Shown: in pieces, positions 19 through 51,398 of the stretch
How positions within the stretch are numbered: the stretch's first letter is position 1
Layout: each line of letters opens with the position of its first letter
Origin: Tessaracoccus bendigoensis DSM 12906
Lineage (GTDB): Bacteria > Actinomycetota > Actinomycetes > Propionibacteriales > Propionibacteriaceae
Direction of reading: 5' to 3'
NCBI RefSeq assembly: GCF_900141915.1
Contig: NZ_FQZG01000015.1
Span: 1-64,000, forward strand
DNA: 64,000 nt
The notes under the pieces: model-generated
Told to the model about the DNA's origin: nothing
What the model saw: only the letters and a program-made list of their open reading frames with translations
The model's database searches: none
Made by a program: the position numbers and the translations under genes

Positions 19-110
19 TTTGAGCAGGATTTGCATGTCATTGCCGAGGCTGCGGCATTGTCAGCAGACGATGCGGCGACACCCGCTTTGAGTAGCGGAT
101 CCTGCTCAAA
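19..110. repeat. Inverted-repeat intergenic element, distant member of family C
   Basis: The arms TTTGAGCAGGAT (19-30) and ATCCTGCTCAAA (99-110) are perfect inverse complements separated by 68 bp. The TTGAGCA ends match the outer ends of the two better copies at about 18.4 and 20.6 kb, but here the next bases are GGAT instead of CTAT. It lies just beyond the 3' end of the CAP-domain gene. The loop has no obvious coding content and function is unknown. Confidence 0.5.
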
Positions 111-5707: not shown

Positions 5708-5739
5708 GCCTTGGGGGATTGACGCACCGACGCCGGGAC

Positions 5740-5976
5740 ACCAGCGATCGTGCGTCGATACCAGCGGTATGGCTCGATACCCGCGTTAGCGCGTCGACAC
5801 CAGCGTTAGCGTCGATACCAGCGTTAGTGCGTCGACACCAGCGTTAGTGCGTCGACACCAGCGTTAGTGCGTCGACACCAGCGTTAGTGCGTCGACACCA
5901 GCGGTATGGGTCGATACCAGCGATATACGGCTGGTGACGATGGATAACGCTGGTGTCCGCTGAACAGTGCTGGTGA
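5740..5976. repeat. Family A phased iteron array, copy 1
   Basis: ACCAG-type motifs start at 5740, 5760, 5779 (as ACCCG), 5799, 5817, 5837, 5857, 5877, 5897 and 5916, then the inverse CTGGT at 5931, 5950 and 5970. Spacing is 18-20 bp throughout. The turning point is the 20-bp centre ACCAGCGATATACGGCTGGT at 5916-5935. Part of the left arm (5817-5897) is an exact 20-bp tandem repeat of the type GTTAGTGCGTCGACACCAGC. The same plan, with the same 15-bp distance across the centre, recurs at 16.7 and 41.0 kb. This copy sits between two convergent 3' ends. It codes for nothing evident. Confidence 0.85.
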
Positions 5977-6100: not shown

Positions 6101-6120
6101 GGAGTGCGTGCGTGGGGCCG

Positions 6121-6230
6121 AGCGGGGCCGAGCGGGGCCGAGCGGGGCCGAGCGGGGCCGAGCGGGATCGAGCGGGGCCGAGCGGGGCCGAGCGGGATCG
6201 AGCGGGATCGACCGGGATCGAGCGGGTCTG
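6121..6230. repeat. Decamer tandem repeat AGCGGGGCCG x11
   Basis: Eleven head-to-tail 10-bp units of AGCGGGGCCG, with AGCGGGATCG variants at units 5, 8, 9 and 11 and one ACCGGGATCG, run from 6121 to 6230. The region carries no plausible gene although long frames cross it. Together with the family A and B elements it fills the 686-bp gap between the di-iron gene and the helical-protein gene. The remainder (6231-6393) shows nothing I recognise. Confidence 0.8.
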
Positions 6231-6393
6231 GTCTGGTGCGAGGATCAGCGGATGGCGACGACGTTGGCCAGACTCTCGCACGGAACGGGCTCGAACCAGC
6301 GGCGGGTGGCGACAGGCACGGGCACGGCGCGCTGCGCCGAGCCCGTGCATACCGATTGCGGCGCCGTCGGGGATCCGAAGGCTCCGCGTAGGC

Positions 6394-16679: not shown

Positions 16680-17073
16680 ACCAGGGGTATGGGCGCGCGT
16701 TACCAGCGATATCTCTCGTTACCAGGGGTCCGGGCGCGTTACCAGCGTTATCTCTCGTTACCAGTGGTCCGGGGGCGTTACCAGCGTTATGTCTCGTTAC
16801 CAGTGGTCCGGGCGCGTTACCAGCGTTATCTCTCGATACCTGCGAAATACGGCTGGTGTCGCGCGATTTCGCTGGTGTCCGGAACGGATCCCTGGTGTCG
16901 AGCGATACCACTGGTGTCCGGAACCGATCCCTGGTGTCGAGCGATTTCGCTGGTGTCGGGAACGGATCTCTGGTGTCGAGCGATTTCGCTGGTGTCGGGA
17001 ACCGATCTCTGGTGTCGAGCGATACCCCTGGTGTCCGGAACGGGTCCCTGGTGTCGCGCAAGAACCCCTGGTG
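16680..17073. repeat. Family A phased iteron array, copy 2 (largest)
   Basis: ACCAG starts at 16680, 16702, 16721, 16741, 16760, 16780, 16799, 16819 and (as ACCTG) 16838; the inverse CTGGT follows at 16853, 16872, 16892, 16911, 16931, 16950, 16970, 16989, 17009, 17028, 17048 and 17068. Spacing alternates 19 and 20 bp with very little drift across 21 units. The centre is ACCTGCGAAATACGGCTGGT (16838-16857). In the left arm alternate units are ACCAGCG and ACCAGTGG/ACCAGGGG, so the real period is about 39 bp. The array lies between the 5' end of the helicase gene and the 3' end of the peptidase gene, both leftward. The flanking 16406-16679 shows no gene. Confidence 0.9.
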
Positions 17074-17095
17074 ACGCGTCGTCAACGACGGCGCG

Positions 17096-18337
17096 TCACC
17101 GGACGACCTTGTGGTCCGCCAAGTCGAAGAGCCGGGGCAGCACGCTGGCGGAGCGCAGGCCGCTGTGCTCAAACTGGCTCGTCACCCACGGCGTCACACT
17201 CGGCAGCAACGAAGCCGTCTCCATCGAATACTCGACCGGCACGTAGATGTCGTTGTAATACACCGCCGCCGCTCCCTCAGCGCCCGAGCCACGCAGCGCG
17301 TCGACGTCGTACAGCCGCGGCCATTCGTGCACGGCCAGCGCCTCGGCGACGTCCTTCCAAGGCCGCAGCGCCGGCACCGTGTCGGCCCACTCGCGACGGA
17401 CGTGTTCGCCGGTCAGCAGCGTCGGGTCGGCGCGGAAGTCGTCGGGCTCGACCCGCTCCGCGGCCCAGTCGGTGACGCCACCGTCGGCGTAGCAGGACTC
17501 GTGGACGACGTAGTAGAGCGGGTTTCGGCCGCCGAAGGGGAGCGCGTCGGCGAGGTCGTAGCGGAACGCATTGGTGTTCGGGTTCTCGTCGAGGAGCGAC
17601 CAGAGGCTCTGCCAGCCGTCGTCCGATCCAAGCAGCGACCCGAGCGAGCGGAGCCGCGAAACCGAGACGACCTCACCCGTCGGCAGTTCGAGCGAGCCTG
17701 ACGCGGCCAGGTCGACCAGGCGTCGCACGGCATCGCGGTGCTCAGGGAATCGGCGGTAGTAGCGCTCGGAGGCGGCGCGGACCTTGTCGTAGGTCAGCGC
17801 GTACGCCTCGTCTGGCGTGCGGCCGACGGCGCTCAGCCCCCCGGTGAAGAACACCTTGTCGAGTGACTCGGCGGCGGTGCTCAGATAGCTCAACGTCGTG
17901 AATCCTCCGAACGACTGCCCCAGCGAGCTCCATTTCGGTGCCCCGAGGTGTTCGCGGATCGCTTCGGCGTCGCGGACGATCGAGTCGGCGCGGTGGTGGA
18001 TGAGGCGTTCGACGAGCGCGTCGGTACCTAGCGTCAGGTCGTCGTCGGTGATGGGCGTCGACCTGCCGGTGCCGCGCTGATCGAGCATGACGACGCGGTA
18101 CTTCTCGAGCGCCGCGTCGAGCCAGGACGGCGACGTCGACGCGTGGAACGGGGTCGGCGCCTCGAACCCGGGGCCACCCTGCAGGAACAGCAAGTAGGGC
18201 AGTCTCTCACCGTCGACCCGGGTGACGACGGTCGCGTGTACGTCGATCGTGCGCGCGTCGGCCGGGTCGGTCCAGTCGAGGGGCACTGCGATCGTGTGGT
18301 CGTCGACCGTCAGGTCCTGCATGCGTCGGGTGCTCAC
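17096..18337 (-). CDS. Alpha/beta-hydrolase, prolyl aminopeptidase-like (family S33)
   Basis: The 413-residue cytoplasmic protein follows the proline iminopeptidase plan: oxyanion motif LQGGPGFE near residue 54, LDQRGTGRS, the nucleophile elbow GQSFGG (Ser about 140), a large helical cap, and a C-terminal His in FEHSGLR. Such enzymes release N-terminal proline or other residues from small peptides. There is no signal peptide. The GTG at 18337 is the longest plausible start; an ATG five codons later is also possible, and neither has a strong ribosome site, so it may be leaderless. The 3' end abuts family A copy 2. It is divergent from the S9 peptidase gene, with a family C element between them. 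Confidence 0.85.
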   Translation of the reverse strand: MSTRRMQDLTVDDHTIAVPLDWTDPADARTIDVHATVVTRVDGERLPYLLFLQGGPGFEAPTPFHASTSPSWLDAALEKYRVVMLDQRGTGRSTPITDDDLTLGTDALVERLIHHRADSIVRDAEAIREHLGAPKWSSLGQSFGGFTTLSYLSTAAESLDKVFFTGGLSAVGRTPDEAYALTYDKVRAASERYYRRFPEHRDAVRRLVDLAASGSLELPTGEVVSVSRLRSLGSLLGSDDGWQSLWSLLDENPNTNAFRYDLADALPFGGRNPLYYVVHESCYADGGVTDWAAERVEPDDFRADPTLLTGEHVRREWADTVPALRPWKDVAEALAVHEWPRLYDVDALRGSGAEGAAAVYYNDIYVPVEYSMETASLLPSVTPWVTSQFEHSGLRSASVLPRLFDLADHKVVR

Positions 18338-18523: not shown

Positions 18524-20557
18524 ATGTCTGAAACGCCCAAGTCACCCTGGCAGGACCTCGAAACCTACGTCACCATTCCCAGGCTCGTCGGGCTCACCCT
18601 CAGTCACGACGGATCGACGCTGATCGCCGCGGTACAGGGCCCCGACGCGGAAAAGACCGCCTACACCACCTCGCTCTGGGCAGTCGACCCCGCCGGCGAG
18701 CGACGCGCCGTCCGTCGGACACGGTCGGTGAAGGGCGAAGCCGCGTCGGCTTTCCTGCGCGATGGATCGCTGGTGTTCACGTCGAAGCGCGACGTCCCGG
18801 CCGTCGGTGAGGACAAGCCGAAGGACTCCACCAATGCGCTGTGGTGCCTGCCATCCGACGGCGGCGAGGCCTACGTCCTGGCCCGCCGCGACGGCGGCTA
18901 CGGCTCGATCCTCACCAACGCCGACGACGACAACGTCGTGCTCGGCGTGCTCATGTTCGACGGCGCCGCCGACGACGAGGCCGACGCGGCGAAGCGGGAG
19001 CAGCGCTCCAAGCGGAAGGTCTCCGCGATCCTGCACGACGGCTACCCGGTGCGGTACTGGGACCACGACCTTGGCCCCGAACACCCCCGGCTCCGGCTCG
19101 CCCCGGTCGAGGGCGATGTCGTCGGCGACCTGACGCTCGGCGGACCGCGCGACCTCACCGGCGATGTCGGTGCCGCGCTCGGCGACGCCGCGCTGTCACG
19201 AGGCGGCCAGACGCTCGTGGCCGAGTGGAAGCGGTCCGCCGCGCACGGTGTCACCGTCAGCGAGGTCGTCCGAATCGACCTGGCCACCGGCGAGCGCACC
19301 GTCATCGCGGCCGAGGACGGCGTCGAGTTCGGCAGCCCGGTCGTCAGTGACGACGGTCGCCTCGTCGCCGTCGTGCGTAGCCTGGATTCCACCCCCACAA
19401 AGGCCGTCGACTCCAAGCTGTGGCTGGTCGACCTGGCCACCGGCGAGTCCCGGTTCGTCGCGGAGGGCTGGGACCGGTGGGGGCACCCCGTGGCCTTCTC
19501 TCCCGACGCGTCGACCCTCTACGTGGTCGCCGACGAGGACGGCGCCGCCCCCGTCTTCGCGGTCGACGTCGCCACCGGCGGGGTGCGCCGACTGACGGAG
19601 GAAGGGGCCCACCACAACGTGTTACGCAGCCCGGACGGCTCGACGTTGTATGCGCTGCGCTCCTCGTACTCCAATCCGGGCGACATCGTCGCGATCGACG
19701 TCGACACCGCGACCACCCGCGTGCTCCGGTCGCCGGTGGCGTACCCGGAGTTGCCTGGACGGGTGGAGCGGGTCGAGACGACGGCGGCAGACGGCACGCG
19801 GGTGCCCGGGTGGCTGATCGTGCCCGACGGCACCACGGACGAGGCCCCTGCGCCGCTGACGCTGTGGGTGCATGGCGGCCCGCTCGGTTCGTGGAACGCC
19901 TGGTCGTGGCGCTGGTGCCCGTGGCTGCTGGTCGCCCGCGGCCAGGCGGTGCTGCTGCCCGACCCGGCCCTGTCGACCGGGTACGGCCTCGACTACATCC
20001 AGCGGGGCTGGGGTCGTTGGGGTGCCGAGCCGTTCACCGACATCATGGCGCTCACCGACGCCGTCGAGGCGCGCCCGGACATCCGCGACGACGCGTCGGT
20101 GATGATGGGCGGCTCGTTCGGCGGCTACATGGCCAACTGGATCGCCACGCACACCGACCGGTTCAAGGGCATCGTCTCGCACGCGTCGCTGTGGAACCTG
20201 ACGGCGTTCGGCCCGTCGACCGACGCGGCCTGGTACTGGAGCCGGGAGCTCAGCCCCGAGATGCTGGAGGCCAACTCACCGCACCGGTTCGCGGGAGACA
20301 TCGTCACCCCGATGCTCGTGATCCATGGCGACCTCGACTATCGGGTGCCGATCAGCGAGGGGCTGGCGCTGTGGTGGTCGCTGAACGAGAAGTTCGACGG
20401 CGACCCGGCCGAGTTCCCGCACCGGTTCCTGTACTTCCCCGATGAGAACCACTGGATCCTGACGCCGCAACACGCGGTCGTCTGGTACGAGACGGTGCTC
20501 GGCTTCGCCGACGCCGTCCGGGAGGGCCGTCTTCTGGAGCGCCCCGCGATCCTGTGA
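18524..20557 (+). CDS. S9 family serine peptidase (prolyl oligopeptidase/acylaminoacyl peptidase type)
   Basis: The roughly 677-residue protein has an N-terminal beta-propeller of WD40-like/TolB-like repeats (SPDASTLYVV, SPDGSTLYAL, VSDDGRLVAV) over about the first 420 residues, then a catalytic alpha/beta-hydrolase domain with HGGPLGSW, the nucleophile GGSFGGYM, an Asp in HGDLDYRVP, and a His in DENHW. It hydrolyses short peptides or acyl-peptides in the cytoplasm; no signal peptide is present. ATG at 18524 (MSETPKSPWQDL) fits the family N-terminus. A GTG at 18500 with AGGAG ten bases upstream would add eight residues and is the main alternative. It is flanked on both sides by family C elements. 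Confidence 0.9.
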   Translation: MSETPKSPWQDLETYVTIPRLVGLTLSHDGSTLIAAVQGPDAEKTAYTTSLWAVDPAGERRAVRRTRSVKGEAASAFLRDGSLVFTSKRDVPAVGEDKPKDSTNALWCLPSDGGEAYVLARRDGGYGSILTNADDDNVVLGVLMFDGAADDEADAAKREQRSKRKVSAILHDGYPVRYWDHDLGPEHPRLRLAPVEGDVVGDLTLGGPRDLTGDVGAALGDAALSRGGQTLVAEWKRSAAHGVTVSEVVRIDLATGERTVIAAEDGVEFGSPVVSDDGRLVAVVRSLDSTPTKAVDSKLWLVDLATGESRFVAEGWDRWGHPVAFSPDASTLYVVADEDGAAPVFAVDVATGGVRRLTEEGAHHNVLRSPDGSTLYALRSSYSNPGDIVAIDVDTATTRVLRSPVAYPELPGRVERVETTAADGTRVPGWLIVPDGTTDEAPAPLTLWVHGGPLGSWNAWSWRWCPWLLVARGQAVLLPDPALSTGYGLDYIQRGWGRWGAEPFTDIMALTDAVEARPDIRDDASVMMGGSFGGYMANWIATHTDRFKGIVSHASLWNLTAFGPSTDAAWYWSRELSPEMLEANSPHRFAGDIVTPMLVIHGDLDYRVPISEGLALWWSLNEKFDGDPAEFPHRFLYFPDENHWILTPQHAVVWYETVLGFADAVREGRLLERPAIL

Positions 20558-22382: not shown

Positions 22383-22404
22383 CGACGCTGGACCCGGCGT
22401 AGCC

Positions 22405-22477
22405 GTGCACAAATCTCTGCATGGGTGGAGGCGGGCCCCTATAGCGAATGCCTCCACGTATAGAGAGATTTGTGTAC
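22405..22477. repeat. Family D 73-bp near-palindrome, copy 1
   Basis: The element begins GTGCACAAATCTCT and ends with AGAGATTTGTGTAC. Its 29-bp arms pair at 23 positions, including GTGGAGGC/GCCTCCAC near the middle. Copy 2 (35321-35393) has the same length and layout. Here it lies between the convergent flavoprotein and acetyltransferase genes. Confidence 0.88.
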
Positions 22478-34715: not shown

Positions 34716-35213
34716 TCAGCTCCACGCAGCGGTGAAGACGCTCACCGCCAACAGGCCTGTGGCCAACATCGCGCAGCCGAACTCGACGAGGATGCCGAGG
34801 CCGAGGGCCTTGAGGGTGGCCCAGCTGGTGGTGAGGGCCTTTCGCAGGTCGCGCATCCGGAACCACTCCGCCAGGAGCAGACCAAGCGCGAATCCGATGG
34901 GTAGCCCGAAGCCGGGAAGCACGAACATTCCGGCGATGCCGAGGAGGATGCCGACGGTGACCGGCCACTTCGGCACCTCGTTGCGCTGGAGTGACGCTCC
35001 GGTGAGCAACCAACTGCTGAGGGCACCGATGATGAGGAGGACGGCGGCGACCCCGAAGGCGATCCAGCCCCAGCTGGAGGCGCCCCAGATCGCCCAGGCC
35101 AGCGCGCCGATGCCGACCATGATGCTGCCGGGAAGCACGGGGAACACGATGCCTGCCAGCCCGATGAGGGCCAGGACAACGGCAGCGATGGCGGCGATGA
35201 TTTCGACGGTCAC
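34716..35213 (-). CDS. DUF456 family membrane protein
   Basis: The 165-residue protein has five to six hydrophobic segments and the DUF456 pattern: VLALIGLAGIVFPVLPGSIMVGIGALAWAI at the N-terminus, a charged loop, then GILLGIAGMFVLPGFGLPIGFALGLLLAE and a basic RMRDLRKALTTSWATLKALGLGILVEF. The family is integral membrane, with no known function. The start is a GTG with AAGG directly adjacent, so translation may be leaderless. Its upstream side faces the repeat-filled region at 35.3-36.0 kb. Confidence 0.8.
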   Translation of the reverse strand: MTVEIIAAIAAVVLALIGLAGIVFPVLPGSIMVGIGALAWAIWGASSWGWIAFGVAAVLLIIGALSSWLLTGASLQRNEVPKWPVTVGILLGIAGMFVLPGFGLPIGFALGLLLAEWFRMRDLRKALTTSWATLKALGLGILVEFGCAMLATGLLAVSVFTAAWS

Positions 35214-35320
35214 CCTTCAAGGGTACGGTCACGCCCGAAAAGGGTGCCGTCTGCTGCTTCTTCGGCAGGCTGGTTCGGGCCTGCCCTGCGTGCGGCGTCG
35301 GGCCGAAACGGGCGCGTCGT

Positions 35321-35393
35321 GTGCATAGATCTCTCTATGTGTGGAGGCGTGCGCTATATGCGAGCGCCTCGACGTATGCAGAGATTTGTGTAC
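35321..35393. repeat. Family D 73-bp near-palindrome, copy 2
   Basis: It begins GTGCATAGATCTCTCTATG and ends with GCAGAGATTTGTGTAC. Length, arm layout and the central CTATA/GCGA block match copy 1 at 22405-22477. It lies about 110 bp upstream of the DUF456 start, at the left edge of an 880-bp region with no gene. Confidence 0.88.
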
Positions 35394-35520
35394 AGCGCTG
35401 GAGTAGCGAGGCGGGTTGGCGTCGTCTGGGGTCGTTGGGGAGCGCTGTTGGGGTGAGGTCGTGGGGGAGGCTGGTCGCCCGTTCGTGGGCGGTGCGGCCC
35501 CGGGCTGTGCCCCTCCCGGC

Positions 35521-35580
35521 GAAAATCGACCAGTGGTCGATTCTGGTGTGTCTGGTGCCGAAGATCGGCCAGTGCCCTGT
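35521..35580 (+). repeat. Family B palindromic element, copy 2
   Basis: It reads GAAAATCGACCAGTGGTCGA, then TTCTGGTGTGTCTGG, a short variable part, then GATCGGCCAGTGCCC. The motif ATCGRCCAGTG occurs twice, about 40 bp apart, and the first occurrence is the left half of a palindrome. About 65 bp, including the flanks CGGC and TGTCGACGG, are identical to copy 3. Confidence 0.88.
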
Positions 35581-35647
35581 CGACGGGGTGGGCGTGTGGG
35601 TTCGCGTGTGCGGCCCGTGCGGTGTCTGGGGCGGGGGCCCACAGGCA

Positions 35648-35739
35648 GTGCGGCCCGGGAATGCGGCCCGGGAGTGCGGCCGGGGAGTGCGGCCCCGGGA
35701 GTGCGGCCCGGGAGTGCGGCCCGGGAGTGCGGCCCGGGC
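35648..35739. repeat. 13-bp tandem repeat GTGCGGCCCGGGA x7
   Basis: About seven units of GTGCGGCCCGGGA, with single-base variants and one 12-13 bp register shift, lie between family B copies 2 and 3. The unit contains the palindrome GGCCCGGG-type core. No gene is supported here. Confidence 0.75.
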
Positions 35740-35765
35740 TCCGGGCTCGGGGTAGCGCCCCCGGC

Positions 35766-35825
35766 GAAAATCGACCAGTGGTCGATTCTGGTGTGTCTGG
35801 TGCCGAAGATCGGCCAGTGCCCTGT
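35766..35825 (+). repeat. Family B palindromic element, copy 3
   Basis: This copy is identical to copy 2 over the element and its immediate flanks, then diverges. Copies 2 and 3 are 245 bp apart in direct orientation, which suggests recent duplication or gene conversion. Confidence 0.88.
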
Positions 35826-35857
35826 CGACGGACTCTGGTGCGCACTCTCGTGGGCTA

Positions 35858-35915
35858 GGCAGTGGGCGATTGTCGTGGCAGGACGGATGAGAATCGGCCA
35901 GTGGTCGATTTTCGT
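35858..35915 (-). repeat. Family B palindromic element, copy 4 (inverted)
   Basis: Read on the minus strand it has GAAAATCGACCACTGGCCGATTC, a spacer, and a diverged ATCGCCCACTGCC end. It faces copy 3 head to head, so the two together form a larger inverted repeat around 35826-35857. Confidence 0.75.
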
Positions 35916-35963
35916 GGTCTGGGTCGTGCTCTGGGTCTGGTTCGTGGCCTGGGTCTGGGGCTG

Positions 35964-36014
35964 GAGCAGGGACAGGACAAGAGCAGGGACAGGACAAGAG
36001 CAGCGACAAGGCGC
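35964..36014. repeat. 17-bp tandem repeat x3
   Basis: GAGCAGGGACAGGACAA occurs exactly at 35964-35980 and 35981-35997, with a degenerate third unit to about 36014. It is followed by the 5' region of the serpin gene. The remainder of the 35.2-36.1 kb gap shows no gene. Confidence 0.8.
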
Positions 36015-36095
36015 GGGCAGCGACAGTGGTGGAGGCGGGCCGCCCGACGACCCCCCGCGCTAGGCTTGACCATCGACTCCTGAAAGGGGCCCGGC

Positions 36096-37352
36096 ATGTT
36101 CACCAGGCGTCAGGTTCTGACATTCGTTGGGCTTGCTGTGGCCGCAGTCGGGGTGAGCGCCTGTTCCGGCGACGGCGGCAGCCGAGGCGCGACGCTCCTC
36201 CGCGGCACCACCTCGCTGCTCCAACTGCCCTTCGACGAGACCTCGGGCGTCGCCCAGGCTGCCCGCGGCTCGGCCGATCTCGGCTGGAACCTCCTCCTTC
36301 AAGGCACGGAGCCGAACCGGGCCATCGCCCCCTCCTCTCTGGCGGTCACCCTCGGGATGCTCGCAGAAGGTGCCACCGACGAAACCCTCGCGAGCCTCGA
36401 CGCCGTCTTCGGACTCACCGGCGACGAACGTTCTGCCGCGTTGGGCGCACTGCGGCAGTCGCTGAGACCCTACGAACTCCTCCCCGAATCCGTCGACGTC
36501 AACGACCCGCCTGAGGCGCCGCTGGTGCACCAGGCAAGCCAGGCCGTAGTCGTCGAGGGAAAGGAGGTCGAGCAGCAGTTCCTCGAACGGATCGGCGCCT
36601 ACTTCGACGTCGGCACCCAGCAGGTGGCCCTCGGGGAGATGAAGGCAGTGCTTGACGACTGGGTTGTGAAAAACACTGCCGGGTTGATCGAGAAGTCGGC
36701 GATCGAGGTCAGGCCAGACCTCGTGCTGGTCCTGCAAGACGCCATTCTGTTCGCCGCGGCTTGGGCGACCGCCTTCCCCTACGACGACACCCCGCTCGAG
36801 TTCGAGGGGCCGGGCGGGACGCAGCAGGTGAAGGCGATCTCTGGGGAGTTCTCCGTCCCCTTCGCCGTCGGCGAGGGCTGGAAGGCTGTTCGGCTGCCCT
36901 ACGACGAGGCGCTCGCGATGGACGTGATCGTGCCGGACGCCGGGCCCGAGGCGTTGTCAGCGCAGCAGTTGGACGAGGTGCGGGTCGCGCTGGACGACGC
37001 CACAGCGGTCACTGTCGCGGTGACGATGCCCCCGTCGGACCTGACCGGGGGATTGAACCTGCTGCCGCTGCTCGGGGCGGAGGGCGTCACGTTCGAGAAC
37101 AGCGTCGACGGGATTTTCCCGGGCGCCATCGTCGACCAGTTCGCCCAGCAGGTGCGGCTCATGGTCAGCGCAAAGGGCACCGTCGGGGCCGCGGTGACCG
37201 AGGTTGCTGGGGTAGAGTCCGCGCCGCAGTCTCCCGAGAACGAACTGGTCGCCGACCGCCCCTTCGTAATGAGGGTGCTTGACACCAGGACTGGCTGGCC
37301 CCTGTTCCTGGCCATCGTCTCCGACGCCGCCGACGCGGCTCCTGAAGGCTGA
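36096..37352 (+). CDS. Serpin family lipoprotein
   Basis: The 418-residue precursor begins with a twin-arginine-like or standard signal (FTRRQVLTFVGLAVAAVGVSAC) whose lipobox VSAC would lipidate Cys23. The body is a serpin: NLLLQGTEPNRAIAPSSLAVTLGMLAEGA is the shutter/helix B region, FAAAWATAFPYDDTP is the breach, and near the C-terminus AKGTVGAAVTEVAGVES is the hinge and reactive-centre loop, followed by the serpin signature ADRPFVMRVLDTRTGWPLFLAIV. The hinge has small residues at the positions that must insert into sheet A, so it may be inhibitory. Serpins irreversibly trap serine or cysteine proteases. As a surface lipoprotein it could protect the cell from host or competitor proteases. 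It is unusual but known in actinobacteria. Confidence 0.85.
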   Translation: MFTRRQVLTFVGLAVAAVGVSACSGDGGSRGATLLRGTTSLLQLPFDETSGVAQAARGSADLGWNLLLQGTEPNRAIAPSSLAVTLGMLAEGATDETLASLDAVFGLTGDERSAALGALRQSLRPYELLPESVDVNDPPEAPLVHQASQAVVVEGKEVEQQFLERIGAYFDVGTQQVALGEMKAVLDDWVVKNTAGLIEKSAIEVRPDLVLVLQDAILFAAAWATAFPYDDTPLEFEGPGGTQQVKAISGEFSVPFAVGEGWKAVRLPYDEALAMDVIVPDAGPEALSAQQLDEVRVALDDATAVTVAVTMPPSDLTGGLNLLPLLGAEGVTFENSVDGIFPGAIVDQFAQQVRLMVSAKGTVGAAVTEVAGVESAPQSPENELVADRPFVMRVLDTRTGWPLFLAIVSDAADAAPEG

Positions 37353-40942: not shown

Positions 40943-40988
40943 CCATCGCGTGAAGCCCCGGGACGCCCAGATCGGCCTGTTCCGCGTT

Positions 40989-41185
40989 ACCAGCGAAATG
41001 GCCGGACACCAGCGATCCGTCGTCGTTACCAGTGTTCCGCCGTCCTTACCAGCGTTCGGTCGTCGTTACCACTGATATGGCCCGACACCAACGATCTGCC
41101 GTCGTTACCAGCGCAAACCCCCGACACCAGCGATATACGGCAGGTATCAAGACAAACCGTTGGTAACCGCGGAAGAACCCTGGTG
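40989..41185. repeat. Family A phased iteron array, copy 3
   Basis: ACCAG-type motifs start at 40989, 41008, 41028, 41048, 41068 (ACCAC), 41087, 41107 and 41126, then inverse motifs at 41141 (CAGGT), 41160 (TTGGT) and 41180 (CTGGT). The centre ACCAGCGATATACGGCAGGT (41126-41145) differs from that of copy 1 at one base. It fills the 262-bp gap between the convergent HNH and LacI genes. Confidence 0.88.
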
Positions 41186-47533: not shown

Positions 47534-47983
47534 ATGCCTGTAACAGTTGCTGAATGCGAGATTTCCGAAGCGGTGGTGATCCGCGCCAACCAGAGCGTGC
47601 GGGCGGCGGCGAAACTGATGGAATCCCACAACACCGATCTGGTGGTGGTGGTTGACAAGGATGCGATCGCCGGAGTCGTGACGGCCACGGACCTGGTCTG
47701 GCGCGTGTACGCCGTCGGCGGCACGGGCAACGATGAGATCAGCGGCGTTTGCGACGGAGACGTGGTGGTTGCCTCCACGCAGGACCGGGTCAGCGACGTG
47801 GTGGACAAGGTGCAGGAGACGGGGGCCCGGCGCGTGCTGGTCCACGACGACGGCGACCTGATCGGCACGCTGGCACGCGAAGACCTGTTCGAGCGGACCG
47901 GCCGCCCGGTTAAGGCGGTCTCGCCGCATGTGGTGGGAAGTCGTTTCGCGCAGCGGTCGAGGGAGACCGTGGCCGTCGGCTGA
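47534..47983 (+). CDS. CBS-domain-pair protein
   Basis: The 149-residue cytoplasmic protein consists of two CBS domains: VVIRANQSVRAAAKLMESHNTDLVVVVD...GVVTATDLVWRV and VVASTQDRVSDVVDKVQETGARRVLVHDDGDLIGTLAREDLF. CBS pairs bind adenosyl nucleotides and act as energy or redox sensors. There is no catalytic partner domain. ATG 47534 has GGGGAGGACGAG upstream; the open frame before it overlaps the preceding terminator and is unlikely. It stands alone before a repeat-rich gap. Confidence 0.88.
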   Translation: MPVTVAECEISEAVVIRANQSVRAAAKLMESHNTDLVVVVDKDAIAGVVTATDLVWRVYAVGGTGNDEISGVCDGDVVVASTQDRVSDVVDKVQETGARRVLVHDDGDLIGTLAREDLFERTGRPVKAVSPHVVGSRFAQRSRETVAVG

Positions 47984-47999
47984 CACTGCCGCTGGGCGG

Positions 48000-48130
48000 C
48001 TAGTCCCGCTGGGCTGTGAGACCCGCTGGGCGGCTGGGCGGTTAGGCCCGCTGGGCGGCTGGGCGGTTAGGCCCGCTGGGCGGTTAGGCCCGCTGGGCAG
48101 CTGGGCGGTTAGGCCCGCTGGGCGGTTAGG
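48000..48130. repeat. GGGCGGTTAGGCCCGCT tandem repeat region
   Basis: Seven or so overlapping units of GGCGGTTAGGCCCGCTGGGC with GGCGGCT variants fill this stretch, in 17- and 26-bp spacings. It lies just downstream of the CBS gene and before three family B copies. No coding content is supported. Confidence 0.7.
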
Positions 48131-48181
48131 CCGTCAGGCGGCAGCCGCTCTCGGGCGCGGGCTCGTCCGGGCCGGACCTCG

Positions 48182-48425
48182 GAAAATCGACCAGTGGTCG
48201 ATTTTGGTGTGTCTGGGGTCGAGTATCGGCCAGTGCCTTGTTGTCTGGGGGTGTGGGGGCCGGATCGGGGCTTGTGAAAATCGACCAGTGGTCGATTTTG
48301 GTGTGTCTGGGGTCGAGTATCGACCACTGCCTTGTTGTCTGGGGCTGTGGGGGCCGGGGTCGGTTGGGCGAGGATCGGCCAGTGGTCGATTTTGGTGTGT
48401 CTGGGGTCGAGGATCGGCCACTACC
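48182..48425 (+). repeat. Family B elements, copies 5-7, in 94-bp tandem
   Basis: Three direct copies begin at 48182, 48276 and about 48370, spaced 94 bp apart. Each has AAAATCGACCA and TGGTCGATTTT arms (copy 7 begins GGATCGGCCA), then GGTGTGTCTGGGGTCGAG, then ATCGGCCAGTGCC or a variant. Spacers share TTGTTGTCTGGGG. A partial copy (CCAGTGGTCGATTCT) lies at 48639-48654 beside the 3' end of the LysM-BTAD gene. Confidence 0.9.
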
Positions 48426-48538
48426 CGGAGCCCATCCGATCAAGTCGTGGGTCGGACCGCCCTTTGTCCCGGCGCGTCGCCCGGGTCCAGTGACCCCCAG
48501 CCGCCGCGCCCCTGTGTTAGGTGACTGGCGTCAAACCA

Positions 48539-48554
48539 TGCCACAGCTGTGGTG
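48539..48554. promoter_or_regulatory. Palindromic site similar to the one upstream of the DUF308 gene
   Basis: TGCCACAGCTGTGGTG contains the perfect 12-bp palindrome CCACAGCTGTGG and matches 14 of 16 positions of the site at 37399-37414. No gene starts nearby, so its role is unclear. Confidence 0.35.
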
Positions 48555-48662
48555 TACCGGATGGCGCGACCTGACACCCCTACGTCTGGATATGGACCCA
48601 GCCCTGAAACTTCGGGCGACGAACCCGACGACGCCGACCCAGTGGTCGATTCTCCCCGTGTA

Positions 48663-51398
48663 TCAGGTGACGGCCTCGGCGGGCCGTGGATTGGCGTCTC
48701 GTAGGTGGATCGCCAGCTGAACGCGGTGCGCCAGCTCCACGGGCAAGTCCCTGCCAGCGGCGCGCACGGACCGGTTGAGGGCCAGCACCTCGCGGTCCAG
48801 TTCCGCAGCTCTCGCGGCTACGGCGAACGCGTGGATCGCGCGGACCCGCAACTGGTCGTCCTCCGGCGCGGCCAGACGACCCCGTGCGACGGCCCAGAGG
48901 GCCAGGTCGGGGTCGGCGTGCTCGATGGCCCGGTCGGCCAGCACGCTTGCAGCGTCGACAATCATCGAGACCATGTCGGCGCGCAGCGTCTGGGCCCAAT
49001 GCCACTGAAAGGCCGACGCGCCGAGCGGTTCGCCGCGTACGAGGCGAAGGGCCTGACGCAGGGCGGACGGCGAGGCGGAGTTGACGCCCCCGGCGAGCAG
49101 GGCCTCGAAGCGTTCCCAGTCGGAAGTGACCCGCTCGTCCAGTCGGATGCGTCCGGTGTAGGCGTCGGGAAGGTAGGGCGAGCCGTCGGGGGCGGTGCCG
49201 AGCCAGGCGCGCAGCCGACACATGTTGGAGCGTCGGGTGCTTTCGGCCACGAGAAGGTCGCGCGTCATCACGGTGGGAGTTGCCCCCGGGTGAGCCAGCA
49301 GCCAAGCGCAGTACTCGATGCATTGCATTCGGGCGCGATTGGGTTCCTGGCCGGCCGGGTTGAGCAGCTCGACCTCACCCAGCAACGACAGCGTGGGATG
49401 CGGGTGTTCCTCTGGTGGTTCTGGCATCGGTTGCTCCTCGCCGTGAGCGGCCCCGACGAGGGGGAGGGGAAGGACGTTAGGTGGCAGGCTCGAGCTGTCG
49501 CTCCACCACGGGGCTGGGACGGTCTCGGTCGAGCCGGTGGCGCGGAACAGCTCGAGCAGCACCCTCCGGGCGGGTTCGCCGACCAGTTGCGGGGTGAACT
49601 TCTTGCCGCGGAAGGTGCCCAGCTCGGTCTCGAGCTCGACGGCCGCATGTTCGATGTGTGGGGCAGCGGGGGCAGTCGCGACGACGCCGACGCCGACCTC
49701 GCCCAACGCCAGGGCGTCGGCGACGGCGTCGAACTGAGTCGCCGACAAGGGACCTTCGAACAAGAACACCACCGGATTCCACGCGGCGTCGAGGTCGGGG
49801 TCGGAGCGCAGGTCGGGTAGGCTCCGCCCGCGCATGGCAAGGCGCCGTCGGGAACAGGTGCGGGCCAGTTCGGCGAGACCGTCGCTGGTCGAGGCCGACG
49901 CCGTGACACGCGGGTCGTCGAGGGCCTCGGCCCACTGCGCCCCGCCCACCACGATGAGTTCGACCCCTTCAGACCAGGGGGCCGACGACAACCCGGTCAC
50001 GATTGCCGCCAGGCCCGCGGTGGCTTCGCTGCCGGTCAGCACCGTGGCGCGTTCGCGTTCGAGTTCGATGGGCACCTCGGAGCCGTCCTCGGCCCAGCCG
50101 AGCAGCACCGTCGTGGGCGGCGGGGCTTCTTCCGGGTCCGGGGCATCGTCGGCATGGACGGCGAGGGCCCCCCAGAATCGCGATACCTGCTCGGGGACCG
50201 GTACCAGCCGGCGCCCGACGGCACGCCCGAGCAGTTGGGCACGCCTCCGGGTAGCGACCCCTGCGACGACCCCGAGGGCAAGCAACGCGCCGATCGGGCC
50301 GAGGACTGTCAACGGATCTGAGTCGACGGGGGTGGCCTCACCGGCGTGGCTGGCTGCGGGGGGAGGCTGGGTCGGGTCTGTTGCGGGCAGCCCGGCGCGG
50401 ACCGCAATCCTGCCCGGGGTCTCGATCGGCGCCTCTACCGGGCCTTCGACCGGCACCGGTGCCTCGGTCAGCGTCTCAACCGGGCCCTGGGACGGAACCC
50501 CAGCAGGGGGCTCGGCAGCCGGGCCGACCGCGGCTTCGGCGTGGACCTCGCCAGGAATCTCGGCCGCGACTTCGGGCGATGCCGTCGCGGACGGCGCGGT
50601 GTCTGGTAGCTGGAGAACCCAACCGACGTCGATCTCGTCCGGGTCGGCAATCTGGCCGCGGTTCAGGGCATGGATCTCTGGCCAGCGGTTCCCGTCACCC
50701 AGGACCCGTTCGGAGATGGCCCACAGTGAATCACCGCGCTGCACCACCACGTGGCTCGAGACGTTCTCGAGGGGGGACATCTGGGTAACCGGCAGCGTGA
50801 GGACCTGCCCGGCGGTGAGCGTGAACGAGTCGACGATGTCCGGGCTGAGCGCGACGATCTCTCGCCACCGCTCACCCGAACCAAGCTCACGTTCTGCGAT
50901 GTCCCAAAGCTCGTCGCCCTCCTGAACCACATAGACGCGGCCCACTTCTGCCGGTCTGGTAGCGGGCGGAGAGGTGACCGTCGGCTGGGCTTGTGCGGGA
51001 GGGGGGACCGTTGCCGGGGGAGGCCGGATGGGGTCGGCGTCGGCGATCGACGGCGTAAGCACCGCCGCCATTACGAGGGCGCCGATCATCGGACGGAGCC
51101 AACCCGTGCCCGGCAGGCGCAGCCGGACACGACGTCGGGTCAGTACCGCGATGAACTCGAACACCGTGGTGAGCGTGATCACCACCCAGGCGAGCCAGCC
51201 GAGGCAACTGAGCAGCGCGAGGATCAGGGCGCTGCCTGCCCTGGCGGTGAGCAGACCTGCCGGGTCGACCTGGAGCAGGTAGTCGATCGATCCGATCTTG
51301 AGCAGCACCCACGGTGCCCCGACGAGCAGCAGGGCGAGCGTCAGGAGCGCGCCGAGCGCCCGAGCGGCCTTCACCGCCCACTCCGTCGTCGGTGGCAC
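48663..51398 (-). CDS. Membrane LysM protein with C-terminal BTAD domain (Tad operon)
   Basis: The 911-residue protein has an N-terminal pair of transmembrane helices and a third near 105, two LysM domains (about 155-203 and 218-266, each with VVxxGDxLWxIxER and NxxQ/DxxTLxxG-type cores), a long Pro/Ala/Glu linker, another hydrophobic helix near 368 (LTVLGPIGALLALGVVAGVAT), and a C-terminal bacterial transcriptional activator domain (BTAD, about 770-905) made of helical TPR-like repeats. LysM binds peptidoglycan. BTAD normally sits in SARP regulators, but here there is no winged helix directly before it. This layout is common in actinobacterial Flp/Tad operons. It begins 4 bp after the pilin stop codon, from a GTG. 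Confidence 0.8.
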   Translation of the reverse strand: MPPTTEWAVKAARALGALLTLALLLVGAPWVLLKIGSIDYLLQVDPAGLLTARAGSALILALLSCLGWLAWVVITLTTVFEFIAVLTRRRVRLRLPGTGWLRPMIGALVMAAVLTPSIADADPIRPPPATVPPPAQAQPTVTSPPATRPAEVGRVYVVQEGDELWDIAERELGSGERWREIVALSPDIVDSFTLTAGQVLTLPVTQMSPLENVSSHVVVQRGDSLWAISERVLGDGNRWPEIHALNRGQIADPDEIDVGWVLQLPDTAPSATASPEVAAEIPGEVHAEAAVGPAAEPPAGVPSQGPVETLTEAPVPVEGPVEAPIETPGRIAVRAGLPATDPTQPPPAASHAGEATPVDSDPLTVLGPIGALLALGVVAGVATRRRAQLLGRAVGRRLVPVPEQVSRFWGALAVHADDAPDPEEAPPPTTVLLGWAEDGSEVPIELERERATVLTGSEATAGLAAIVTGLSSAPWSEGVELIVVGGAQWAEALDDPRVTASASTSDGLAELARTCSRRRLAMRGRSLPDLRSDPDLDAAWNPVVFLFEGPLSATQFDAVADALALGEVGVGVVATAPAAPHIEHAAVELETELGTFRGKKFTPQLVGEPARRVLLELFRATGSTETVPAPWWSDSSSLPPNVLPLPLVGAAHGEEQPMPEPPEEHPHPTLSLLGEVELLNPAGQEPNRARMQCIEYCAWLLAHPGATPTVMTRDLLVAESTRRSNMCRLRAWLGTAPDGSPYLPDAYTGRIRLDERVTSDWERFEALLAGGVNSASPSALRQALRLVRGEPLGASAFQWHWAQTLRADMVSMIVDAASVLADRAIEHADPDLALWAVARGRLAAPEDDQLRVRAIHAFAVAARAAELDREVLALNRSVRAAGRDLPVELAHRVQLAIHLRDANPRPAEAVT

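Follow-up and report, generated by a model that had tools for sequence, protein, structure and literature searches.

Short intergenic palindromes of the REP/REPIN type often exceed 100 copies per genome, form species-specific families, and have a partner enzyme, the RAYT transposase (a Y1 HUH transposase), whose gene is bracketed by the repeats. Bacterial palindromic repeats are common, but to our knowledge only the RAYT-linked ones have a known partner enzyme; for the CGTC-tagged REPs, which carry CGTC at one end beside a stem of 8-9 bp, a survey found no dedicated transposase (Di Nocera 2013, PMC3733652). In a different context, AbiEi, the antitoxin of type IV AbiE toxin-antitoxin systems, and the related Rv2827c bind inverted repeats in their promoters (PMC7319586), and homing endonucleases of the EDxHD/Vsr-like type, such as I-Bth0305I, are encoded by stand-alone genes. 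Here, a 56-bp palindromic repeat (family B) is described that occurs more than 150 times in the genome of Tessaracoccus bendigoensis DSM 12906 (G000; 4.13 Mb in 158 contigs). In all seven Tessaracoccus genomes found to carry many copies it also lies beside a gene for an AbiEi-like DNA-binding domain fused to a predicted nuclease domain of the DUF559/Vsr type, which points to an unrecognised partnership of repeat and nuclease in actinobacteria.

The starting point was a 64-kb stretch of one contig (C112; the window), in which a sequence-only reading had noticed seven copies of a palindrome-based repeat, three of them in a 94-bp tandem. This observation held: each of the seven is a full 56-position match at the place given for it (Table 1), and the 94-bp tandem is exact. 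The motif ATCGRCCAGTG, with up to one mismatch, was found 26 times in the window where 3.16 matches were expected, and none of 100 shuffles reached 26. Copies 2 and 3, described as identical over about 65 bp, are identical over 72 bp. Two details required correction. The motif had been said to occur twice per element, about 40 bp apart, but the second occurrence usually reads ATCGGCCACTGCC, with C rather than G at column 52 (58 of 74 copies C, 6 G), so that the double ATCGRCCAGTG is a local variant; the spacing is 39 bp. Moreover, the unit is 56 bp long: in 74 copies with both flanks, the flanking columns carry at most 0.71 bit on the left and 0.54 on the right, apart from a T of 1.04 bit at column 57.

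Table 1. Positions of the repeats and of neighbouring features (window coordinates unless another contig or fetched region, L, is named; scores against the 56-bp model).
Position	Strand	Feature	Context	Bits
6044-6099	-	family-B copy, single	convergent gap	47.2
35521-35576	+	family-B copy	divergent gap 35213-36138	63.9
35766-35821	+	family-B copy	identical to the previous one over 72 bp	63.9
35858-35913	-	family-B copy	inverted relative to the previous one	32.9
48182-48237	+	family-B copy, array unit 1	convergent gap 47983-48663	66.0
48238-48275	+	38-bp spacer	between array units 1 and 2	
48276-48331	+	family-B copy, array unit 2		65.0
48332-48369	+	38-bp spacer	between array units 2 and 3	
48370-48425	+	family-B copy, array unit 3		61.8
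48639-48671	+	possible fragment of a copy	weak; may be chance	11.3
contig C99, 35455-36399	-	AbiEi-DUF559 gene (315 aa)	bracketed by inverted family-B copies	
L046, 3191-4024		NOV_C-domain gene	between two inverted pairs of family-B copies	
36138-37352		serpin gene	next to the divergent-gap copies	
19-110		copy of a 90-nt palindrome	family bracketing the DUF559 gene of contig C48	
18373-18461 and 20571-20659		palindromes of the family bracketing the DUF559 gene of contig C107	the pair flanks an S9 peptidase gene (18524-20557)	
5732-5960, 16697-17098, 40984-41169		another array family (ACCAGCG/CGCTGGT units)	periods of about 20 and 39 bp; left and right arms inverted	
22402-22477 and 35321-35396		two copies of an imperfect palindrome of 73 to 76 nt	77% alike; one close to family-B copies	
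47988-48138, 6114-6236, 35644-35764		simple GC-rich tandem repeats	close to family-B copies	
about 48517-48598		degenerate match to a repeat of over 100 bp	multi-copy in genomes G030, G032 and G018 (L132-L146); can be read as a short peptide	

The alignment of 78 full-length ungapped copies gave the consensus GAAAATCGGCCAGTGGTCGATTCTGnTnTGTCTGGnGTCGAGTATCGGCCACTGCC, a 17-bp palindrome around ATCGRCCA/TGGYCGAT followed, 39 bp on, by a third half-site, ATCGGCCACTGCC. Outside the unit, conservation stops at once on the left and after one T on the right. Because most copies from G000 were fetched by an exact 17-bp core, the invariance of columns 5-21 is partly by construction. The palindrome folds to a stable hairpin followed by T's in the window copy, which raised the question of whether the copies are bidirectional transcription terminators or mRNA-stability hairpins multiplied by duplication. 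However, none of the eight predicted pairs shows a compensatory change, pair 9-17 is broken in 11 of 78 copies, no Rfam family matched in the window at gathering score, and 10 of 37 complete gaps are divergent, that is, between gene starts. Given the lack of compensatory changes, we read the palindrome as a DNA feature; the hairpin reading is very unlikely.

To determine how common the element is, the genome was searched with the 17-bp core, which returned 104 exact matches and none for the backwards control, and with the 56-bp model, which returned at least 152 matches at E<=0.01 (a lower bound because only 150 candidates were scored). By hand count, at least 30 of 316 contig ends lie within 150 bp of a copy, so the true copy number is higher. 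A model built from 27 copies gave 131 nonoverlapping hits in the 327 kb fetched around copies (window included), 122 of them above 25 bits, whereas the best hit in the same DNA reversed had 5.6 bits. The copies above 25 bits form 64 clusters, 63 of which do not overlap by more than 30 bp any gene found by a codon-usage caller. Of the complete gaps, 11 are convergent (including the overlapping cluster), 10 divergent, and 16 tandem; the other 27 clusters lack a called gene on one side, being near a contig or region edge.

The element is thus REP-like in the broad sense, that is, high-copy, extragenic, and palindromic, and its size is REP-like as well (PMC3733652). A classical REP/REPIN moved by a RAYT is nevertheless highly improbable, as no match to the Y1 transposase profile PF01797 was found in G000 at E<=0.001, although the same search gave matches in 5 of 14 control genomes, and no GTAG or CGTC tag is present at an end of the element (the ends are GAAAATCG and CACTGCC). 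In contrast to the CGTC-tagged REPs, GTC lies inside the spacer, and a candidate partner enzyme is identified (see below). No matching inverted ends, as in a MITE of a TIR transposon, were seen in the consensus, and no empty site was found in which a target-site duplication could be read.

Among 39 Tessaracoccus genomes, seven carry 23 or more matches: G000 (149, at the scoring limit), G008 (117), G011 (86), G007 (65), G033 (62), G020 (60), and G015 (23). One more (G035) has a single weak match, and 31 have none, meaning no copy recognisable to a model built on G000. In a sample of 391 genomes of the order (40 genera), only six genomes, all Tessaracoccus, matched at E<=0.001. Judged from the few loci seen of each, every carrier species has its own consensus with the same architecture.

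Genes lying near or between copies were then inspected as possible cargo. At the eight loci listed, they were judged by eye to be mostly unrelated; two were scanned, the NOV_C protein gene (Table 1) and a DUF559 gene on contig C99. G000 has four DUF559 matches at E<=1, three above the curated cut-off, and each has a repeat pair around it, of a different sequence for each gene: family B around that of C99, and other palindromes around those of C48, C27, and C107. At C107 the downstream copy is about 1 kb away, and this locus does not score in the 450-bp flank test described below. Within 338 kb of the genome, the C48 and C107 repeats recur at 3 and 9 further places, respectively (E<=0.001), including the window, whereas the C27 repeat was seen only at its own gene.

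Relatives of the full C99 protein with 51% identity or more occur in exactly the seven family-B carriers; the next best full-length match is 48%, in the non-carrier G032. In G008 the gene is in four pieces (50-71%) in different frames, yet 117 copies remain; as this assembly is rated 60% complete, sequencing errors are possible. The six intact proteins form a clade with support 100/99. In all seven genomes, family-B copies lie beside the gene, upstream copies on the gene's strand and downstream copies on the opposite strand: on both flanks in G000, G020, and G008 and, with a degenerate second copy, in G033 and G007, but on one flank only in G015 and G011. For comparison, 6 of 55 window genes have a copy within 400 bp on one side and none on both.

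The neighbours of the gene differ between species on one side (gene names assigned by eye): ABC-transporter-like in G000, G015, and G008, ribosomal-protein-like in G011 and G020, and others in G033 and G007. On the other side, however, G020 and G033 share their neighbours, and G008 has there an enoyl-CoA-hydratase-like gene 71-73% identical to theirs. The unit has thus not stayed in one fixed neighbourhood, but part of the difference may be due to rearrangement beside the gene and not to a move of the unit, which slightly lowered our confidence in movement by the nuclease, and in its broader form given below, and slightly raised that in the two main alternatives. Transposase-like genes lie beside the unit in G033 and G015 (by eye). 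Together with the resemblance of the nuclease domain to that of a homing endonuclease (see below), this leaves a passenger model, in which some other, unidentified transposase spreads the repeats and DUF559 genes settle in them as homing-like parasites, using palindromes as safe sites. It is considered unlikely, because repeat family and nuclease clade co-occur in both families tested, and because in genome G409 the palindrome (up to three mismatches) occurs only at the two flanks of the gene, so there it goes with the gene.

To test whether the association is general, the upstream and downstream flanks of 32 distinct DUF559 loci of the genus (one duplicate dropped) were compared. They share a repeat (local score >=46) in 18 loci, against 2 of 85 control genes (Mann-Whitney p=2e-9); these two controls, in regions L046 and L064, themselves have family-B copies on either side. 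The cut-off of 46 was chosen after the scores had been seen, but the rank test has none, and the controls come partly from loci picked for carrying copies, which makes them conservative. Elsewhere in Actinomycetota, 70 of 296 sampled genomes have a relative at E<=1e-10; of 29 loci, 28 had both flanks and 10 of these scored >=46, against 2 of 756 cross-locus pairs, a control that does not cover other genes of those genomes. Several of the shared repeats are clear palindromes (L183, L190, L196, L201, L202, and L208), others are not. Thus, 14 of 32 genus loci and 18 of 28 phylum loci scored below 46, and G409 and the C27 repeat show that dispersal is not universal.

A second Tessaracoccus repeat family occurs 21, 15, and 12 times in G061, G031, and G029, respectively, and in none of the other 36 genomes; its copies bracket the DUF559 genes of G061 and G031. 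The best DUF559 proteins of the three genomes form one clade with that of G014 (support 100/99), in a tree restricted to one best protein per genome plus the C27 protein of G000. G014 has no match to the pattern of the second family, but a diverged palindrome lies at its gene. Similar nucleases also tend to share repeats: the flanks of two loci share one (score >=40) in 12 of 21 pairs with nucleases 55-80% identical and in 0 of 253 pairs below 55% (rank correlation 0.18, reached by 5 of 2,000 permutations; two pairs above 80% were dropped), although part of the sharing may be synteny.

The AlphaFold2 model of the C99 protein (mean pLDDT 90.3) predicts an AbiEi-type winged-helix part and a Vsr/DUF559-type PD-(D/E)XK nuclease domain. 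In Foldseek, the AbiEi antitoxin 6y8q (E 7e-4) was the only hit under 0.001; the nuclease-domain hits 3r3p and 3hrl had a probability of 0.98 but E values of 0.13 and 0.57, respectively. Structural alignment (VIA-align) gave Z scores of 11.3 for 3hrl, 10.9 for the I-Bth0305I homing endonuclease domain (3r3p), 9.7 for AbiEi (6y8q), and 8.9 for Vsr (1cw0). Of 24 aligned proteins, from which broken, partial, or more distant ones (among them those of C48, C107, and G008) were left out, 23 matched AbiEi_4 at E<=0.1 and 22 matched DUF559. In this alignment 27 columns are invariant, among them D222, E233, D235, H240, D248, and D252. PADLOC hits of the C99 protein were mostly AbiEi models, with one weak DpdF. 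Compared with AbiE systems, a nuclease domain is fused to the AbiEi-like N-terminal part, and the repeats are dispersed; the called neighbours at the seven loci look, by eye only, like genes other than the AbiEii (DUF1814) toxin gene. Compared with I-Bth0305I, the gene is bracketed by intact palindromes rather than seen splitting one. The C99 protein had no match among plasmids, and among phages one unannotated faecal record (31% identity).

The sequence-only reading had proposed a two-site binding element or a small mobile palindrome rather than drift. This interpretation is supported in part; the gene linked to the repeats lies on another contig and could not be seen from the window. That the copies are not due to drift, and that they represent a small mobile palindrome, fits a discrete, dispersed, intergenic element with species-specific variants and an array whose copy number differs between two close species, and the condition set beforehand as refuting, absence of copies from the rest of the genome, clearly does not apply. 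Presence and absence of copies at orthologous sites were compared in one close pair, G033 and G020, from which 20 regions were fetched. In the homologous blocks, the two are mostly 92-99% identical, with some lower stretches. Five region pairs aligned over copies (L211/L217, L213/L224, L214/L221, L216/L230, and L226/L223), both species carry copies in each, and one array has four copies against three. No clean empty site was found; the one alignment break next to a copy (L226/L223) is a 676-bp indel beside the element.

A binding element remains plausible, given the AbiEi-type domain of the linked protein and the spacing of tandem copies, which may be helically phased. Neighbouring copies lie 94 bp apart in 21 of 50 pairs, with 84, 104, 114, and 126 bp as well, and the spacers look largely unrelated between arrays; in the second family the spacing is mostly 74 bp. 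In 32 arrays (one distance each, 60-130 bp), the distances peak at periods of 10.25-10.5 (R 0.71; 0 of 5,000 jitter controls), but 18 of them lie in one peak at 92-96 bp. Without that peak (14 arrays), the mean cosine is 0.48 (null 0.4%), and a period of 3.25 fits better (0.59), so the phasing is suggestive only. In the corresponding alternative, the AbiEi-DUF559 protein would be a chromosome-wide DNA-binding protein (nucleoid or gene regulation), the elements its sites, kept for that function, and the copies beside the gene its own operators, as AbiEi proteins autoregulate through inverted repeats (PMC7319586). However, over nine orthologous copies element identity is 437/474 and flank identity 2943/3297 (92.2% against 89.3%), which argues against conserved regulatory sites, so copies are not strongly held by selection site by site; copies are spread over convergent, divergent, and tandem gaps, 31 of 39 congeners show no copy, and acidic and histidine residues of the nuclease domain are invariant in the 24 aligned proteins. 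This alternative is therefore held to be unlikely, though the least so of those considered.

On present evidence, the repeats are best explained as the dispersed solo copies of a REP-like element whose partner is not a RAYT but the single-gene AbiEi-DUF559 unit, a reading to which we assign a probability of about 0.5. In this view, the AbiEi-like part would bind the palindromes, perhaps cooperatively on phased tandem sites, and the nuclease would nick or cut at or near them, so that host repair or replication copies the palindrome, and now and then the whole gene-bearing unit, to new places, each nuclease clade having its own palindrome. As a PD-(D/E)XK nuclease does not itself join DNA ends to a target, insertion at unrelated sites needs a further step. 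What the analysis demonstrates is the element with its boundaries, copy number, and distribution, the link of nuclease clade to repeat family, the bracketing of the gene, the different neighbours of the unit in different species, and a predicted fold with invariant acidic and histidine residues; binding, cleavage, and spread by the nuclease are inferred from these sequence patterns. A broader reading, tentative and less likely than not, is a new class of bacterial mobile DNA, with many nuclease clades across Actinomycetota, each recognising its own palindrome and able to shed swarms of solo copies; AbiEi-DUF559 proteins would then be selfish repeat-spreading enzymes and not orphan antitoxins.

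Searches of the open literature, which do not cover subscription journals, listed no paper linking DUF559 or AbiEi-DUF559 proteins with dispersed palindromic repeats. We regard the association as new in kind, because the tested defining features of RAYT-linked REPs are absent and the partner enzyme has an unrelated fold; if any REP-like repeat with a partner enzyme is counted as one kind, the element falls within it and differs from RAYT-linked REPs in its partner, in the lack of a GTAG tag, and in its 56-bp architecture of a palindrome plus a third half-site. A second, unrelated enzyme class that brackets and co-occurs with its own repeats would give an alternative route by which such repeats arise, make their spread testable, and suggest a role for a protein family (DUF559 fused to AbiEi) of unknown function. 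The ACCAGCG/CGCTGGT array family of the window (Table 1) is possibly another member of the same kind of system.
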